A stretch of 64,000 bases of DNA. Origin: Candidatus Rhodoluna planktonica. GTDB lineage: Bacteria; Actinomycetota; Actinomycetes; Actinomycetales; Microbacteriaceae. This document shows positions 27,822 through 42,532 of the stretch, one piece after another (position 1 is the first letter of the stretch; the number at the start of each line of letters is the position of its first letter). A program made the position numbers and the translations under genes. The notes beneath the pieces are model-generated. The model ran no database searches and was not told where the DNA came from. It was given only the letters and a program-made list of their open reading frames with translations. The stretch is from contig NZ_CP015208.1 in NCBI RefSeq assembly GCF_001854225.1, positions 310,001 through 374,000 of the forward strand. Reading direction: 5' to 3'.

Positions 27822-29456
27822 TTACAGGCTTTGTGAATCAAGAATTTCGTAACTGTAGCCCTGTTCAGCCAAAAATCGCTGACGATTTTGGGCAAAATCT
27901 TGATCAACTGTGTCGCGCGAAATCAACGTGTAGAAACTTGCCGAGCGTCCATCTTGCTTCGGGCGCAGCAGTCGACCCAAACGCTGCGCTTCTTCTTGAC
28001 GGCTACCAAATGAGCCCGAAATTTGGATTGCAACTGAGGCCTCTGGCAGGTCCACTGAAAAGTTGGCAACTTTAGAAACCACCAGGGTCGAAATTTCTCC
28101 GGTTCGAAACTTTTCAAACAGTTCTTCGCGAACCGGCACTGGAGTTTCGCCGGTGATTTTTTCGATGTGAAGTGTTTCTGCGACTTCATCAATTTGGTCT
28201 AAATACTGCCCGATAATTAGCGTCGGTTCGCCCTGATGTTTAGCGAGAATTTTCTGGATGACCGGCAGTTTTGCATTGCAGGTCGCCGCGATTCGATATC
28301 GGTCATCTTGGTCAGAAATTGCGTAATTTAGGCGCTGCTCGTCTTCCATGTCGACGCGCACTTCGAAACAAGCTGCCGGAGCGATGTAACCCTGTTCTTC
28401 GATTTCTTTCCATGGTGCGTCGTATCGCTTCGGTCCGATAAGAGAAAAGACATCGCCTTCTTTGCCGTCTTCTCGAACTAGAGTTGCGGTTAGTCCCAGG
28501 CGGCGACGAGCTTGCAAGTCCGCAGTCATCTTAAAGATCGGTGCAGGAAGCAAATGAACCTCGTCGTAAACGATGAGTCCCCAGTCGTTGGCATTCAAGA
28601 CATCGAGGTGGGCATATTCGCCACGGCGTTTGGTCGTCAGAATTTGATAGGTGGCGATGGTGACCGGTTTGATCTCTTTAGCTGCGCCAGAGTACTCGCC
28701 AATTTCATCCTCGGTTAGAGTTGTGCGCTTGATCAGCTCACTTTTCCACTGGCGAGCTGAAACAGTATTGGTCACCAAAATTAGAGTGTTGGTTTTCGCA
28801 ACAGACATCGCTGCCGCACCAACAATTGTTTTTCCAGCGCCGCAGGGTAAAACCACTACTCCGGAACCGCCAGCCCAGAACTTCTCCACAGCCTGCGATT
28901 GGTATTCGCGAATCTTCCAGTTGCCTTCGTCCAACCCAATTTCATGGGGAGTTCCGGCGGCAAATCCGGCAAGGTCCTCTGCGGGCCAACCAAGTTTGAG
29001 TAGTTCTTGCTTTACCTGCCCGCGAGCCCAGTCTTGAATTGCGATAGTGGTGTCAGAAAGTTGCTCACCTAGCAATTCATTTACTTTTCGGTGTTTGATC
29101 ACTTCGAGCAAGATGGCCTGCGAATCACAGCTGAGCACCAATTTGCCTTCTAAATCGCGGGTAATTTTCAGCCGACCGTAGCGACCCATGGTTTCGGTGA
29201 TGTCAGTGCGAACCGAAGTAGGAATTGGAAATTTCGCGTAGCGATCAAGGATGTCTAAAACAAAGTCAGCATCGTGTCCGGCCGCGCGCGCATTCCACAG
29301 GCCCAACTTTGTAATTCGGTAAGTGTGGATGTGCTCGGGGGCCCGCTCAAGTTCAGCAAAAATTGCCAAATCATGACGGGCGTCAGCAGCTTGAGGGTGG
29401 GCGGTTTCTAAAAGCGCAGTCTTGTCGCTTTGAACAATCAGTGGCCCAGTAGTCAT
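27822..29456 (-). CDS. DNA repair helicase XPB (bacterial)
   Basis: 544-residue SF2 helicase of the bacterial XPB/Rad25 type. N-terminal damage-recognition-like region (1-170), then Walker A PCGAGKT (Lys209), DEVH box at 298-301, motif III GLTATLVRE, and motif VI 'QRLGRLLRPKQDGR'. In actinobacteria XPB is a 3'-5' helicase; its repair role is not settled. The gene for a helicase-associated partner ends 14 nt upstream, forming an operon. Confidence 0.94.
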   Translation of the reverse strand: MTTGPLIVQSDKTALLETAHPQAADARHDLAIFAELERAPEHIHTYRITKLGLWNARAAGHDADFVLDILDRYAKFPIPTSVRTDITETMGRYGRLKITRDLEGKLVLSCDSQAILLEVIKHRKVNELLGEQLSDTTIAIQDWARGQVKQELLKLGWPAEDLAGFAAGTPHEIGLDEGNWKIREYQSQAVEKFWAGGSGVVVLPCGAGKTIVGAAAMSVAKTNTLILVTNTVSARQWKSELIKRTTLTEDEIGEYSGAAKEIKPVTIATYQILTTKRRGEYAHLDVLNANDWGLIVYDEVHLLPAPIFKMTADLQARRRLGLTATLVREDGKEGDVFSLIGPKRYDAPWKEIEEQGYIAPAACFEVRVDMEDEQRLNYAISDQDDRYRIAATCNAKLPVIQKILAKHQGEPTLIIGQYLDQIDEVAETLHIEKITGETPVPVREELFEKFRTGEISTLVVSKVANFSVDLPEASVAIQISGSFGSRQEEAQRLGRLLRPKQDGRSASFYTLISRDTVDQDFAQNRQRFLAEQGYSYEILDSQSL

Positions 29457-35843: not shown

Positions 35844-35919
35844 TGGTGGCCCCGATAGGAATCGAACCTACGACACAAGGTTTAGGAAACCTCTGCTCTA
35901 TCCACTGAGCTACGGAGCC
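35844..35919 (-). tRNA. tRNA-Arg (anticodon CCT)
   Basis: Cloverleaf on the minus strand: acceptor GGCTCCG/CGGGGCC, anticodon loop with CCT, T-loop GGTTCGATTCC. The 3' CCA is encoded in the DNA (76 nt with CCA). Confidence 0.95.
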
Positions 35920-36000: not shown

Positions 36001-39000
36001 ATGTCTGAGATAGAAGAAACCCCCAATTATGTGGAGAACTCCACTTGGCAGCGGTGGCGCTCAGAAACTCTGAACTTTGGTGGCAATAACCCGCTAAAAA
36101 ACTTCGAATTCAACTCCTTTGGTCAAATCGATTTAGAGAAGAGCCATCCGGGTGGTTTTTCCCAACTAGTCACCGGCAAACGATCGTTGCTATCTAATTT
36201 GGTTCGCGATCCGCTTGCTTTTTCTAGGGCCTCTGCGGCTGCCCGCCGAGTAAAAAACAAAGCCGACAGAATTGAATCGACGCTTGGTTTCAAAACCTTG
36301 AATATGGTCGGTGGTCTCGCAACGATTGCAAAGCCTGAAGGCGAAGTCAAAATCCCTATTTTGATCTGGCCAATTTCGATGCTTAAGAAAGCCGATGACT
36401 ATGAAATTGAAATTTCGGGCCAAGTAAGCGTCAACCCGGTCTTGGTCCAAGAGCTCAATGAGTCTTTCGGCATTCAATTAAATGAGTCAGATTTACTTGC
36501 TCGGCAAAATGAGAGTTCAGATTTTGTTCCGGTCACAGTGCTCAATTATCTTGCTAACCTGACCCGAAACCAGGGTGAGATTGAATTCAAGCGCATCTTG
36601 GTAGTTGGCAATTTTGCAATTGAGCCAATCTTGCTGGCTCGAAAATTTAGCGATGAGCCTCATCCGGTGCTTAGCCGACTGGTGCAGGCAAACAGCGTCG
36701 AACTGGCAAAAGTTGAGACCGACCACCAAGAGACAATTTGCGAAGCCGACCTAATCCAGCGGCGAATTATTTCTAGAGCGCTGAATGGTGAATCATTCGC
36801 CGTCGAAACTTTGCCAGGGTGCGGATACCTGCAGACGGTTGTGATGTCGATTGCAGCCTTAGCCAAGCAAGGCAAAAGAGTTCTGCTGCTAGCAGCTCGA
36901 TCGCAAACGCGGGCCGAACTAAGTGATCGACTAAGCGAGCTTGGTTTATCCGGTTTGATCACCCGGGCAGATTCAACCTGGATTGATGCCGTGGCCGCTA
37001 TTTCGAGGCACGAGAAAGCAGCATCGGAAAGCGAATATCCGGTCAACCTGGACAGCTCCATTTTTGGTCCTTATTTTGAGCAGTTGGAGAAAACGCATCC
37101 TGATCTAGGTGTATCCGTTGCTGAGGCCATGTCTCAAATTGCAAAACTAACTGCACTGGAAAATGCGCCAGAAAATACTGCTCGCATTCCGTTGGAGAAA
37201 CTCAGCGGCTTGACCGATCGTGATGCGGTATTGACCGAATTGGCCCACGCCATGCAACTTGGCGAGTTCAAGTTTGGGCCTCAAGATTCAGCCTGGTTCG
37301 GGGCGGTGTTTAGTAACGCAGAAGATGTAAGCCGCGCGATTGAACTTGCTCAAAAACTCAACGAGACAGTTTTCACAGAGCTTTCTAAAGTTTTGGCAGA
37401 CTTCACCGAAAGAGTAAATTTCCGCCCTGCCAGCACAGTCTCCGAATGGGGAGACTATCTCTCCCTATTTATTGGAGTGAGGGAAACTTTAGACAAATTC
37501 ATCAGCGAGGTATTTGACCGACCGCTCACCGAACTTATTGCCGCTACAGCACCTCGCCGCGGTGTACCAAAAGATCAGCGCCCCGCAATTTCTGGAGGTA
37601 ATCGGCGCAGACTGAAGAAACTTGCCAAAGAATATCTTCGCAGCGGAATGTCGGTAGCAGACATGAACCAAGCGCTGCAGGCAATTCAGCAGCAGCGCGA
37701 TTCCTGGCGTGAACTTTCTCTGGTTCCAACGCAACCGCAAGTGCCTCAGGGGATCTTAGAAGCTCAAACCGCCTACCAAGCTTTCGTAGCTGATTTGCAG
37801 GCGCTTCAACGTCACCTTGATCCAGAAACCCATCCGGTTCCACTGTGGGATTTGCCTTTGGATCAGTTGAAGCAGGTACTCCACTCTCTGGCGAACGATA
37901 AAGAAGTCCTGGTAAATCTTTCCGAACGGGTCATGGTTCAATCTCGCCTAGCAGATCTGGGTCTGCAGCAATTAGTCCGAGAACTGGCCCGCTTACATGT
38001 TGACGATTTGCCCACTCTCGAACTTGAATTCCAACTTTCGTGGTGGCAGTCGGCACTCGACTTCCTGATCACTCAGCCAGATGCGCAGCGTCTGATTGAT
38101 TTTGAGAAACAGAATGATTTAGAAAACTCTTTTGCGAAGAATTACAGCGATTCGCTCAATCAAAATCGACTCGCTTTAGCCGCTGCGCTATCGAAAAAAT
38201 GGCGAAACTCACTTCAAGCCCATCCGGATGAGGCTCAGAAACTGAAGCAGCTGCTGCGAAGCGGTTCGGCTTCCATTTCGGAAATACAAGAATCTGCCCC
38301 GAGTCTGTTCGATTCAATCAGCAGCGGCGTGCTCATCTCGCCCTTCAGCGCTGAACTCTATTCGCTACCCAATTTCGATGTAGTTTTCGTTTTAGACGCC
38401 GCAGGCTTAGCAACAGCTGAAGTTGTCAACGGAATTCGATTTGCCCAACAAGTCATCGCATTTGGTGACCCAGCGATAGCCCAGCCGGAAAAATTTGAGT
38501 TGGAGCAAAGGGCCCAGCAAATTGAAAATGATTTGCACACCGACTCGGCATTTGCGGCAATCTCTGGTTGCTTTGGAACTGAGACGCTTGAACGCAGTTA
38601 TCGAACGACACCTCAGGCGCTAGGCGACCTAATCAACCGTGAGTTCTATTCGGGTCGCATCCAATTCACCCCCACCGCTGAAGAGTATTTTGGCGAGCGC
38701 CGTTTCTCGCTCGAAATTGTGACTGCAAAAAATCGAGCAAACTCAACGATTGAGGGGGCCACTGAAAGTCTAGATTCCGAGGTCAGTCGTTGTGTTGAAC
38801 TGGTTTTTAACCACGCTCTCTGGCACCCGGAGAAGTCACTTTTGGTCGCCAGCGCATCTGCAGTTCATGCAGAAAGAGTCAGAGCTGCGGTTGCACTAGA
38901 GCTCAATTCGAAACCTAACCTCGCCGAGTTCTTTGATTCTCACGGACGCGAGAAATTCGAAGTAGTTTCACTTTCAGAGCTGACTCACCGTATTGCAGAT

Positions 39001-39669
39001 CGCGTCATCTTTTCGATTGGCTTTGGACGGACCAGTCATGGCGCTGTTCTCTCTAACTTTGGGCAGCTAAATTTGGATTCCGGCAAGCGCTATCTTGCCA
39101 ATCTGATGGTCAGCGCTCGCGAACAAATAACAGTAGTTAGCTGTTTTCAGGCCAAGGATTTGCCAAATGATCGGCTAAGTCGAGGCGCCAACCTGCTGCG
39201 ACAACTATTGTCTGCGGCCGAAGAATTTGAACCTCAACAGGCTGATCCAATTGATGATCAGATTCTCAATGATTTAGTGATGCGTTTGAAAAAACTTGGG
39301 CTTCGGGTTGCTTCGCCTTACGGCGAGTTGGCCTTGGTCGTAAGTTATGGCAAGCGCGCTCTGTTCGTTGCACTGGATAAACATCTTGTCGGACATGATT
39401 GGATCGAAAAGTTCGCCATCGAACCTTCGTTTATTTGTGCCCTGGGTTGGGAATATTTCAGAGTTTTTAGTTTTCAACTTTTCTCAGATCCGCAGGGGGT
39501 TGCCAACCTCATCGCGGAGCATTTGGGCGTAGCAGTCTCAAAAAAGAAGGTTGCGCTCTTTGATGATTTCGACCGCTCGTTCGAAGATACCGATGCCGCC
39601 TGGGGTGAGCGAGCAACCGAAAATCGTGACGAAATCATGAAACGCGATAAGCCACCGCATTGGAAATAG
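36001..39669 (+). CDS. helicase-like protein with degenerate ATPase motifs and a C-terminal endonuclease-like domain
   Basis: 1222 residues, related to the DUF4011/SF1 helicase group. The Walker A position reads LPGCGYLQT (about 271-279) where active relatives have PGTGKSQT: Lys is Tyr and Ser is Leu. The Walker B position reads FDVVFVLDAAG (about 792-802) instead of FDxVxxDEAS. Later SF1 motifs persist in part: YRTTPQAL (about 867), 'VIFSIGFGRTSHGAVLSNFG' (about 1003-1022), then MVSARE in place of the TRAR motif VI. Residues about 1080-1210 resemble the MTES_1575-type restriction-endonuclease-like domain, also without a clear PD-(D/E)xK core. Predicted not to hydrolyse ATP. Monocistronic, in an otherwise core region. 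Confidence 0.78.
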   Translation: MSEIEETPNYVENSTWQRWRSETLNFGGNNPLKNFEFNSFGQIDLEKSHPGGFSQLVTGKRSLLSNLVRDPLAFSRASAAARRVKNKADRIESTLGFKTLNMVGGLATIAKPEGEVKIPILIWPISMLKKADDYEIEISGQVSVNPVLVQELNESFGIQLNESDLLARQNESSDFVPVTVLNYLANLTRNQGEIEFKRILVVGNFAIEPILLARKFSDEPHPVLSRLVQANSVELAKVETDHQETICEADLIQRRIISRALNGESFAVETLPGCGYLQTVVMSIAALAKQGKRVLLLAARSQTRAELSDRLSELGLSGLITRADSTWIDAVAAISRHEKAASESEYPVNLDSSIFGPYFEQLEKTHPDLGVSVAEAMSQIAKLTALENAPENTARIPLEKLSGLTDRDAVLTELAHAMQLGEFKFGPQDSAWFGAVFSNAEDVSRAIELAQKLNETVFTELSKVLADFTERVNFRPASTVSEWGDYLSLFIGVRETLDKFISEVFDRPLTELIAATAPRRGVPKDQRPAISGGNRRRLKKLAKEYLRSGMSVADMNQALQAIQQQRDSWRELSLVPTQPQVPQGILEAQTAYQAFVADLQALQRHLDPETHPVPLWDLPLDQLKQVLHSLANDKEVLVNLSERVMVQSRLADLGLQQLVRELARLHVDDLPTLELEFQLSWWQSALDFLITQPDAQRLIDFEKQNDLENSFAKNYSDSLNQNRLALAAALSKKWRNSLQAHPDEAQKLKQLLRSGSASISEIQESAPSLFDSISSGVLISPFSAELYSLPNFDVVFVLDAAGLATAEVVNGIRFAQQVIAFGDPAIAQPEKFELEQRAQQIENDLHTDSAFAAISGCFGTETLERSYRTTPQALGDLINREFYSGRIQFTPTAEEYFGERRFSLEIVTAKNRANSTIEGATESLDSEVSRCVELVFNHALWHPEKSLLVASASAVHAERVRAAVALELNSKPNLAEFFDSHGREKFEVVSLSELTHRIADRVIFSIGFGRTSHGAVLSNFGQLNLDSGKRYLANLMVSAREQITVVSCFQAKDLPNDRLSRGANLLRQLLSAAEEFEPQQADPIDDQILNDLVMRLKKLGLRVASPYGELALVVSYGKRALFVALDKHLVGHDWIEKFAIEPSFICALGWEYFRVFSFQLFSDPQGVANLIAEHLGVAVSKKKVALFDDFDRSFEDTDAAWGERATENRDEIMKRDKPPHWK

Positions 39670-39922: not shown

Positions 39923-40504
39923 CTATTTGACCTTGGGAAATCGGCTACTGCAAACGATTATTTGCGTGGGCGTCACAATCGCGTCGATCATCTGGTCGTG
40001 ACTTTCGGTCGGTAGATCGGTAAATACTTCTTCGTCAAAAACTACCGCGACAGTTAGCGGGTAATTTTCACCAAGAGCCCGGTCATAAAAACCCATTCCT
40101 TTACCGAGCCTTTTCCCGTTCGGCGAAGCTGCCAACGCTGGAGCGATAACCAGGTCAACATTTTCCAAAGAAGTCTCGGGGCCAATTGGCTCTGGAAATA
40201 CAAAAATTCCAGGCTCGGTGTCCCCGGAGAAGTCAACCCAGGTTAGCGATCTGTCTGCATTGGACCTTGGCATTACCAAGCTCAAGTGGTTCTCAAGTGC
40301 CCAGTCAATAAAAAGTTCGGTGTCTGGTTCTGTGCTTTGAGAAAGGTAGCAGGCCACTTTTTTGCTTCCCAATTTGGAAACCAAACCAATCAGTTGTTCG
40401 GCTAAACCGCTTGCTTCAAAAACTCTAAATTCAGTTTCGGTTCGACGTTGAATTATTTGTTTCCTTAAAGATTTCTTTTGTTCAACTATCGACAATTGCT
40501 CCAT
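39923..40504 (-). CDS. 5-formyltetrahydrofolate cyclo-ligase
   Basis: 193 residues. Converts 5-formyl-THF to 5,10-methenyl-THF with ATP. Signature 'NGKRLGKGMGFYDRAL' (about 130-145) and N-terminal basic 'KKSLRKQIIQRR' match the MTHFS/YgfA family. Starts at ATG 40504, leaderless, divergent from the acetyltransferase gene. Confidence 0.93.
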   Translation of the reverse strand: MEQLSIVEQKKSLRKQIIQRRTETEFRVFEASGLAEQLIGLVSKLGSKKVACYLSQSTEPDTELFIDWALENHLSLVMPRSNADRSLTWVDFSGDTEPGIFVFPEPIGPETSLENVDLVIAPALAASPNGKRLGKGMGFYDRALGENYPLTVAVVFDEEVFTDLPTESHDQMIDAIVTPTQIIVCSSRFPKVK

Positions 40505-40521: not shown

Positions 40522-41130
40522 GTGTCCCATGCTCTAGAACTTGTTGATGGTGAAGTAAGCGCTCGCATTGTAAAAATTCGCGACGCCAAAAAGCTAGAAG
40601 AACTGCTGATGACCAATCGAGCTTGGTTGCGCCCGTGGGAGGCAACAAACCCCGAAGGGCCTGTCAGTTTTGACATAAAGAAACAAATTAGAGCCCTGCT
40701 TCGGCAAATGGACAATGATCAAGGGTTACCTTTTGTTATTTGCTTCAATGGGCAGGTGGTGGGCCAGGTCAACGTCGCAAACATTCTGTGGGGTTCAGTA
40801 AGTTCCGCTGTCATCGGTTATTGGATTGCACCAGATTTTGCGGGCCAGAACATAACTCCGACCGCAGTTGCTCTGGTCAGCGATTATCTAATGCGCGAAA
40901 TGGGGCTCCACCGAATTGAAATAGACATACGCCCAGAGAACAAGGCATCCATCCGCGTTGTTGAAAAACTGGGTTTTCGCTATGAAGGCTTTCGGGAAAA
41001 GTACATTCACATTAATGGCGCCTGGCGGGATCACTTCTCATTTGCGCTTACCAAGGAAGAAGTCGCCGAGGGAATTCTGCTGAGGTGGAAGCGTGGCCGA
41101 GTGCCCAAGTCTGAATACCCAATCTTTTAG
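40522..41130 (+). CDS. RimJ/RimL-type GNAT N-acetyltransferase
   Basis: 202 residues. Acetyl-CoA-dependent GNAT fold: 'IGYWIAPDFAGQNITPTAVA' (motif A region), 'GLHRIEIDIRPENKASIRVV' and 'KLGFRYEGFRE' are characteristic of ribosomal-protein alanine acetyltransferases. GTG start, leaderless. In corynebacteria and streptomycetes rimJ lies with the cyclo-ligase, glp(moeA) and glpR/sepX; here only glp/moeA is missing. Confidence 0.9.
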   Translation: MSHALELVDGEVSARIVKIRDAKKLEELLMTNRAWLRPWEATNPEGPVSFDIKKQIRALLRQMDNDQGLPFVICFNGQVVGQVNVANILWGSVSSAVIGYWIAPDFAGQNITPTAVALVSDYLMREMGLHRIEIDIRPENKASIRVVEKLGFRYEGFREKYIHINGAWRDHFSFALTKEEVAEGILLRWKRGRVPKSEYPIF

Positions 41131-41923: not shown

Positions 41924-42532
41924 ATGGGTATTTTTGATTCAGCGAAAAAATTGTTCGCTAGAAACGCATCTAACATTGCAAAAGACGCCGGCAAGATTGC
42001 CGCTGAAGTTGCCGACGAGGCTGCTAAGGTCGCCGCAGATCTTGAGAAAAAAGTAGACAAAACTGTTGCTGAGGTTGAGAAGAAAGTTGCAACCACCGCA
42101 AAGGTCGTTGAAAAGAAGGCAACAGCTGCTGTGCGTACCGCGAGCAAGACCGCAACCAAGGCAACCAAGTCTGCTGGTACTGCTGTGAAGAAGGCAGCAA
42201 GCACAGCTGCGAAGACCACCGCGAAGGCTGCCAAGCCTGCGGCTAAGAAGGCTGCACCTAAGGCAGCTGCGAAGCCTGCTGCGAAGCCTGCGGCTAAGAA
42301 GGCTGCACCTAAGGCTGCTGCGAAGCCTGCTGCGAAGCCTGCGGCTAAGAAGGCTGCACCTAAGGCTGCTGCGAAGCCTGCTGCGAAGCCTGCCGCCAAA
42401 AAGGCTGCACCTAAGGCTGCTGCGAAGCCAGCTGCGAAGCCGGCCGTCAAAAAGGCTGCACCTAAGCCTGCTGCTAAGAAGGCTGCACCTAAGCCTGCAG
42501 CTAAGCCAGCCGCTAAGCCAGCCGCAAAGTAA
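41924..42532 (+). CDS. Lys/Ala/Pro repeat protein, histone H1-like
   Basis: 202 residues. Residues 1-75 are an amphipathic helical region (MGIFDSAKKLFARNASNIAK...), and about 75-202 is low-complexity KKAAPKAAAKPAAKPAA repeats, like the C-tails of histone H1, HupB or other nucleoid proteins. It lacks an HU domain. A nucleic-acid-binding or condensing role is inferred from composition. ATG follows AGGAAAG. The opposite strand is also open here but only as a shadow of the repeats. Confidence 0.8.
   Translation: MGIFDSAKKLFARNASNIAKDAGKIAAEVADEAAKVAADLEKKVDKTVAEVEKKVATTAKVVEKKATAAVRTASKTATKATKSAGTAVKKAASTAAKTTAKAAKPAAKKAAPKAAAKPAAKPAAKKAAPKAAAKPAAKPAAKKAAPKAAAKPAAKPAAKKAAPKAAAKPAAKPAVKKAAPKPAAKKAAPKPAAKPAAKPAAK
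42239..42442 (+). repeat. 51-bp in-frame tandem repeat (four units)
   Basis: Units start at 42239, 42290, 42341 and 42392. Units 2 and 3 are identical over all 51 bases; unit 1 differs by one base and unit 4 at several third positions. Degenerate partial units continue to about 42530. Each unit encodes 17 residues. A candidate site for length variation. Confidence 0.9.

Follow-up and report, generated by a model that had tools for sequence, protein, structure and literature searches.

A Core Homologue of DUF4011-Type Helicase-Nucleases in Candidatus Rhodoluna planktonica with Lost ATPase and Nuclease Residues

Helicase-nucleases of the DUF4011 type are named as anti-phage proteins, yet nearly the whole order to which Candidatus Rhodoluna planktonica belongs keeps one at a mostly fixed locus. 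The subject of this analysis is such a gene, an open reading frame (ORF) at 36001-39669 (+) of a 64,000-nucleotide stretch (hereafter the window, meaning the whole stretch analysed) of this organism's genome, which consists of 1,424,506 bases in one contig. The ATP site is gone in most families of the order and the nuclease site also in the family of the window organism, under strong constraint where this was measured; the motif loss is real, and older and broader than one genome. Because the ATPase residues are lost while the protein is well preserved, it probably has a job needing no ATP, and we find it reasonably probable that this core protein of the order, formerly an active helicase-nuclease, is now an ATP-independent nucleic-acid-binding scaffold or sensor. 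Judging from sequence, the window protein appears to be a DUF4011-class helicase-nuclease turned pseudo-enzyme throughout its lineage.

Described Systems and the Window Protein

PriA of Deinococcus radiodurans is described as having lost its ATPase and kept DNA binding (PMC4504706), which is its likeness to the protein proposed here. In AddB and RecC, inactivated superfamily 1 (SF1) helicase domains serve to recognise Chi in single-stranded DNA, according to another report (PMC4824097); this likeness is one of analogy, i.e., a helicase fold kept, motifs lost and the remainder reused to read DNA. With the SF1B helicases Upf1, SMUBP-2 and Dna2 the window protein shares homology at the profile level, and it differs from them in the loss of the ATPase residues. 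PriA presumably belongs to another helicase family, and has another role.

The best named matches are models of anti-phage proteins. The window protein matched the NCBIfam models of ProA (NF058533; E 7.2e-39) and Hhe (E 5.4e-17) and the PADLOC models PDC-S37 (E 2.8e-49) and Hhe (E 2.2e-15), the best-matching stretches falling between residues 536 and 1109 (about 536-1109 for ProA and PDC-S37; 616-1075 for the weak homology to Hhe, a DUF4011 anti-phage protein), and each of the three proteins was matched by 23/23 rows of alignment A1, a profile alignment of 23 homologues. From these family names a defence origin is plausible. The protein could accordingly be a domesticated anti-phage factor, i.e., a helicase-nuclease of the ProA, Hhe or PDC-S37 type whose one remaining task is to detect invading or damaged DNA and alert another effector, but we regard this as unlikely. 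The scores lie far under the curated cut-offs (133.1 of 1500 bits for ProA and 60.5 of 2000 bits for Hhe), the PDC-S37 match covers positions 695-1256 of 1550 in a model without a cut-off and so denotes homology, not membership, and PADLOC PDC models are described, in part of a published account, as mostly unvalidated candidates (PMC12988326). The ProA model has 1903 positions against the 1222 amino acids (aa) of the window protein, which, unlike ProA and PDC-S37, is without Walker A, Walker B and nuclease residues and is by distribution a core gene rather than a defence candidate. It likewise differs from Hhe in lacking the ATPase and nuclease residues, while two long paralogues (L057 and L058; L- and G-numbers denote the loci and genomes of the comparison and f-numbers its families) keep GKS and DEAS. 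Among the matches listed in a literature search, whose scope left subscription journals mostly outside, there was no paper on this protein family, and none of those on ProA, PDC-S37 or Hhe describes the window protein by its title or the start of its abstract.

The initial annotation had placed the protein by eye among DUF4011-type SF1 helicases with an MTES_1575-like nuclease end, and its relatives bear this architecture out. Alone, the window protein matched no Pfam family over the cut-off, including DUF4011 (PF13195) and MTES_1575 (PF18741), and as a single sequence it had no match among the sequences of solved structures (PDB). The active-type relatives L090 and L109, however, exceed the cut-offs for DUF4011, AAA_11, AAA_12 and MTES_1575, and L108 those for the last three, with DUF4011 just under; DUF4011 is also over the cut-off in L002 (23.6 bits vs 22.2) and L114 and just under it in L068, and MTES_1575 is over it in L114 of f34 and under it in L068 and L002. 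Profile A1 matched SMUBP-2 (E 1e-12), NAM7, DNA2 and UPF1 among the PDB sequences. The PPGTGKT of SMUBP-2 aligns with PGCGYLQT of the window protein (residues 272-279) and a later stretch with the Walker B region, which indicates that the alignment is not shifted; neither [AG]x4GK[ST] nor GK[ST] occurs at any position of the window protein, so that a shifted alignment or a second P-loop is ruled out.

Loss of the ATPase and Nuclease Residues

The ORF was verified in length, strand and 1222 open codons, as the initial annotation had it. Its parts are as follows.

36001..39669, + strand: putative pseudohelicase-pseudonuclease ORF, 1222 aa
36040..36690, + strand: N-terminal DUF4011-like region, approximate limits, from the DUF4011 score of relative L002, the window protein itself being without a Pfam match
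36814..36837, + strand: Walker A remnant PGCGYLQT, residues 272-279, Lys to Tyr
38383..38406, + strand: Walker B remnant VFVLDAAG, residues 795-802, DE to LD
39019..39063, + strand: GFGRTSHGAVLSNFG segment, residues 1007-1021, similar in active-type and most degenerate rows
39109..39120, + strand: motif VI remnant VSAR, residues 1037-1040, second Arg retained
39286..39546, + strand: MTES_1575-like nuclease remnant, residues 1096-1182, conserved D and E to Ala
39556..39666, + strand: C-terminal PPHW tail, residues 1186-1222; among 249 testable loci it is fused at 60 and has an ORF of its own downstream at 136

Family, order and class mean those of the window organism throughout. For the Lys count, 17 duplicates were removed from 249 rows, distinct rows being those that differ over 500 alignment columns; a 93-row alignment was made without fragments (L012, L026, L029, L030, L044, L046, L054-L056, L059 and L060) and duplicate loci, and alignment A2 has 61 rows. 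The Walker A Lys is present in 0/170 readable family rows (0/102 from the genome set, with four further rows gapped, and 0/68 from named loci), so that the close homologues with an intact GKS/T by which the initial annotation would have been refuted are absent from the family, and in 0/57 rows from 15 other families of the order (18 readable and 39 further rows, one f13 row being gapped). It is present in 2/2 rows of f5, in 19/26 rows of f18, and in L109 of f37; the paralogues L057 and L058 were left out of these per-family counts. Both the Lys and the Walker B DE stand in 24 rows, which include L057 and L058, neither stands in 199/223 (at least four of them, L038, L231, L235 and L236, gapped at Walker A), and no row is mixed. 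In the f6 rows L330, L334 and L319, GKS strings (ALVxxGKS/ALMxxGKS) were placed by eye after the P-loop stretch.

The replacement of the Walker A Lys by Tyr was read correctly, Tyr being the only residue in the 31 distinct Rhodoluna rows, with Gly in most other family rows. The Leu that follows it, read together with the Tyr, is not general, since Thr is commoner there (51/61 A2 rows). The DE of Walker B is likewise lost, but the Asp still visible stands in the Glu column (DE to LD or VD). In motif VI the loss of the first Arg holds (VSAR vs TRAR in others), this residue being Ser in 19/61 A2 rows. Of the later motifs claimed to be well kept, the SIGFGRTSHGAVLSNFG stretch is kept, in active-type relatives too, but the Gln-Gly before it (columns 995-996) is changed.

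One might suppose that nucleotide is still bound or slowly hydrolysed by a non-canonical P-loop, the Gly-rich loop being kept for that. Despite the loss of Lys, P272, G273 and G275 are invariant in A2 (61/61 rows) and Q278 and T279 stand in 60 and 59 rows; Asp occupies the old Glu column in 61/61 A2 rows and 171/172 readable family rows; and f34, a family outside the order, has Arg for Lys in 8/8 rows. We consider this explanation quite improbable, however, for within the family the Lys is replaced variously by G, Y, A, V, L, S or I, the whole loop motif is degenerate in several other families (f4, f9, f10, f14 and f20), and the Walker B Asp column, which became Leu or Val, is without Asp in all 172 readable family rows. 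ATPase activity is probably lost.

The initial annotation left the activity of the nuclease part unclear, but it can be judged from the residues. Most active-type rows carry a D in an IDLAV-like stretch and an E in VExDG; the window protein has Ala at both columns, and its nuclease activity is probably lost too. Among rows with at least 70 residues in this region (40 further rows of the order were outside this count), D and E are both retained in 19/24 Lys-bearing rows and in 7/199 Lys-less rows (two of f6, one of f7, three of f18 and one of f1), and the family has D in 1/166 and E in 121/166 rows. This retention mostly in Lys-bearing rows suggests that the ATPase was lost first and the nuclease later. 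L088 and L032 (f6) and L089 (f7), which have the nuclease D and E and no ATPase residues, are possible ATP-independent nucleases.

Locus, Distribution and Constraint

Downstream of the ORF in the window lie a convergent 5-formyltetrahydrofolate cyclo-ligase gene and, beyond it, rimJ:

39923..40504, - strand: convergent 5-formyltetrahydrofolate cyclo-ligase gene, conserved neighbour, whose counterpart at L108 is Pfam 5-FTHF_cyc-lig
40522..41130, + strand: acetyltransferase gene, conserved neighbour, with a product that we take to be RimJ-like

The ligase gene lies downstream in the same orientation at 68/80 named loci, the remaining 12 having at most ~1.1 kb downstream; these 80 were taken as family members by similarity, some of their titles giving phylum or order only and that of L163 saying Acidobacteria. 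In other genomes mscL often lies between the helicase-like gene and the ligase gene. Neighbours were scored by named markers (clustering all ORFs gave mostly spurious ORFs in high-GC loci), and 50/58 context loci have at least one downstream marker, i.e., convergent mscL, convergent ligase or co-directional rimJ. Convergent mscL lies downstream at 18/18 Lys-bearing f5 and f18 loci with context and with the gene read, a count without the Lys-bearing f18 locus L301 (target not recognised) and without two more Lys-bearing f18 genomes, G370 and G383 (context not taken). The active-type and dead genes are positional orthologues, and since the active-type genes sit at the same locus, the ATPase residues were lost in situ. 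A local mutation in the window gene is ruled out by the family-wide loss of Lys together with the GKS- and DEAS-bearing positional orthologues from two other order families, which point to an old, lineage-wide loss. With active-type orthologues at this locus too, one can compare directly what is left after the motor is lost; if the reading is true, those two families offer in the same slot a natural before/after pair for the origin of a pseudohelicase.

The number of losses was addressed with 72 rows chosen by hand, 29 of them of unusual composition, from which a quick LG+G4 tree was built with the motif I and II columns removed and with the long active-type paralogues L057 (2167 aa) and L058 (2103 aa, cut), both with GKS and DEAS, as outgroup. 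The tree joins 41 Lys-less rows, drawn from 15 families, in a single group (Shimodaira-Hasegawa-like approximate likelihood ratio test, 100), sister to the f5/f18 group, and the state of the Lys needs five changes. A single loss for all 53 Lys-less tree rows is rejected by the approximately unbiased test (p 0.008), which does not reject one loss for the 41-row group with f34 and f25 (p 0.75), and on these results we claim at least two losses, not five. That the ATPase residues were lost in situ at least twice may safely be said.

L109 (G284), the active-type copy of f37, is sporadic (1/21 genomes of that family) and without mscL locus markers; it is possibly a mobile defence version.

A match was found in 57/59 genomes of the closest set, the two misses being genomes 62% and 70% complete, in 198/199 genomes and 78/78 genera of the family, in 118/119 genomes and 53/53 genera of the order (at 1e-80), and in 29/118 genomes of the class (at 1e-30), some via long partial matches only; relatives with a homologue include Rhodoluna, Aquiluna, Agromyces, Clavibacter, Curtobacterium, Leifsonia and Cryobacterium. 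Small genomes retain it as well: G433 (0.8 Mb) has a homologue of 1205 codons, and G070 (0.9 Mb) one with an open frame of 1175 codons, its match crossing one TGA. The description as a core-genome protein is well founded on these counts, and a gene in all sampled genera of the order and without a known role is a tractable target. L163 (JABBOB010000065.1), titled Acidobacteria bacterium, carries a Microbacteriaceae-type copy and is perhaps a mis-binned contig.

The same distribution bears on whether the protein is an anti-phage factor. The f37 copy behaves as a mobile defence gene would, and in an excerpt of a study of Pseudomonas aeruginosa a DUF4011 gene is reported to flank a core defence hotspot in every isolate examined (PMC10250203), so that an immune role is compatible with universal presence. 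Near-universal presence in the order, at a mostly fixed locus and down to genomes of 0.8 and 0.9 Mb, is nevertheless unlike a patchy defence gene. Of the roles first proposed, i.e., scaffold, DNA-binding, or defence or regulatory factor, we favour scaffold or DNA binding and a defence factor less; a housekeeping role would fit better than an immune one.

The ratio of nonsynonymous to synonymous substitution rates (dN/dS; Nei-Gojobori counts) was computed for 14 pairs of close relatives chosen by hand; three pairs were saturated and the other 11 gave values of 0.010-0.110, i.e., the relatives are under purifying selection. This range disfavours a recent pseudogene and, together with the near-universal presence in family and order, sustains the earlier statement that the gene is under selection. 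That a former defence gene is here decaying slowly and no longer has a function is very improbable: the loss of ATPase and nuclease residues was stepwise and a few matches have in-frame stops (e.g., one TAG in G175, one TGA in G216), as a relic would, but the dN/dS values, the open frames, which are long in the large majority of listed matches, and the near-universal retention argue against it. In 22 active-type rows, 288 columns are conserved at 90% or more; in 130 of these, 80% or more of 174 family rows have kept the residue, among them G822, D823, Y867, R868, N879, Y883, D1000, G1007, G1014, G1021 and R1030.

The PPHW Module, the Proposed Role and Neighbouring Features

The window protein ends in DKPPHWK, and its final ~37 residues match a small PPHW-ending protein. 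With P[PA][HQ]W within 12 residues of the stop as criterion, a PPHW-like end is fused at 60/276 distinct loci and a separate PPHW ORF lies at most 1,200 bases downstream at 136 more, 27 loci being not testable. The scan gave 194/247 loci forward, 1/247 in reverse, 4/247 in shuffled sequence and 0 of no more than 153 upstream. In 7/12 printed PPHW ORF examples a codon that could serve as start overlaps the stop codon of the gene before it; in two f34 examples the nearest ATG is ~600 bases away; six small PPHW ORF products had no Pfam match over the cut-off and no NCBIfam match. This overlap, and fusion in several families, suggest a functional link between the helicase-like protein and the PPHW module.

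Of the places matched by a short profile of the module (11 rows; borderline matches are weak), 20 were read, 10 with a PPHW end and 8 near mscL (L369, L374, L378, L381-L384 and L387). With caution, the small PPHW gene might be older beside mscL, the helicase gene having settled in front of it, with later fusions; PPHW end and mscL occur together in L369 only (1/8 mscL-side matches), which weighs against this older neighbourhood. Somewhat short of even confidence, we suggest the wider account of a core helicase-nuclease, carried by most families of the order, whose motor died in place as the protein became indispensable, and which acts with a small PPHW-ending acidic protein, possibly an older mscL neighbour and fused in several lineages.

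The course of events behind a scaffold or sensor would be the following. The ancestor would have been an active DUF4011/SF1 helicase/PD-(D/E)XK-type nuclease whose gene had mscL and the 5-formyltetrahydrofolate cyclo-ligase gene as neighbours; the ATPase residues would have been lost early in most families of the order; in the window lineage the nuclease residues would have gone too, the remaining protein being kept; and it would now work without ATP as a nucleic-acid-binding scaffold or sensor via the old helicase groove, the acidic PPHW-ending tail, fused C-terminally in the window protein, being perhaps a participant. Elsewhere in the host genome two PDDEXK_1 open frames, 1027 and 1072 aa long, lie next to each other (the second match crosses one TAG); they are probably its AdnAB, and with such a pair the window protein need not replace end resection.

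Several observations weigh against this account. The dN/dS pairs are of relatives only, none with the window's gene, whose nearest relatives are ~53% identical to it. The majority residue is changed in 102 of the 288 conserved columns, including Q826 and Q995-G996, which we take to belong to motifs III and V from general SF1 knowledge, so that nucleic-acid contacts may be weakened; K276, D798, E799, S801, Q802 and the nuclease D1111 are among the other changed columns. Eight of the 58 context loci are without markers, i.e., L089 (f7), L098 (f8), L099 (f12), L104 (f11), L109 (f37), L111 (f25), L094 and L100, the last two having fewer than 400 bases downstream. Finally, the PPHW module was not found at 53/249 testable loci and occurs also in genomes without the helicase (68/118 class genomes at 0.01, vs the 29/118 of the helicase search), so that adjacency alone may explain the fusions.

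The gene had been credited with its own promoter. This was not upheld, as the promoter scan found no sigma-70-like site on the + strand from 35700 to the start codon, other promoter types being outside the scan, and the three such sites of the whole window compare with 3.7 in shuffles. Just upstream of the ORF lies a tRNA gene, which sits between an HNH endonuclease gene and the ORF:

35844..35919, - strand: tRNA-Arg, anticodon cct

Elsewhere in the window, the ORF at 41924-42532 (+) is very lysine/alanine-rich and repeat-like, presumably resembling a histone H1-type C-terminal domain, and the ORF at 27822-29456 (-), which we take to encode an XPB-type helicase, has a P-loop, CGAGKT, that looks intact.

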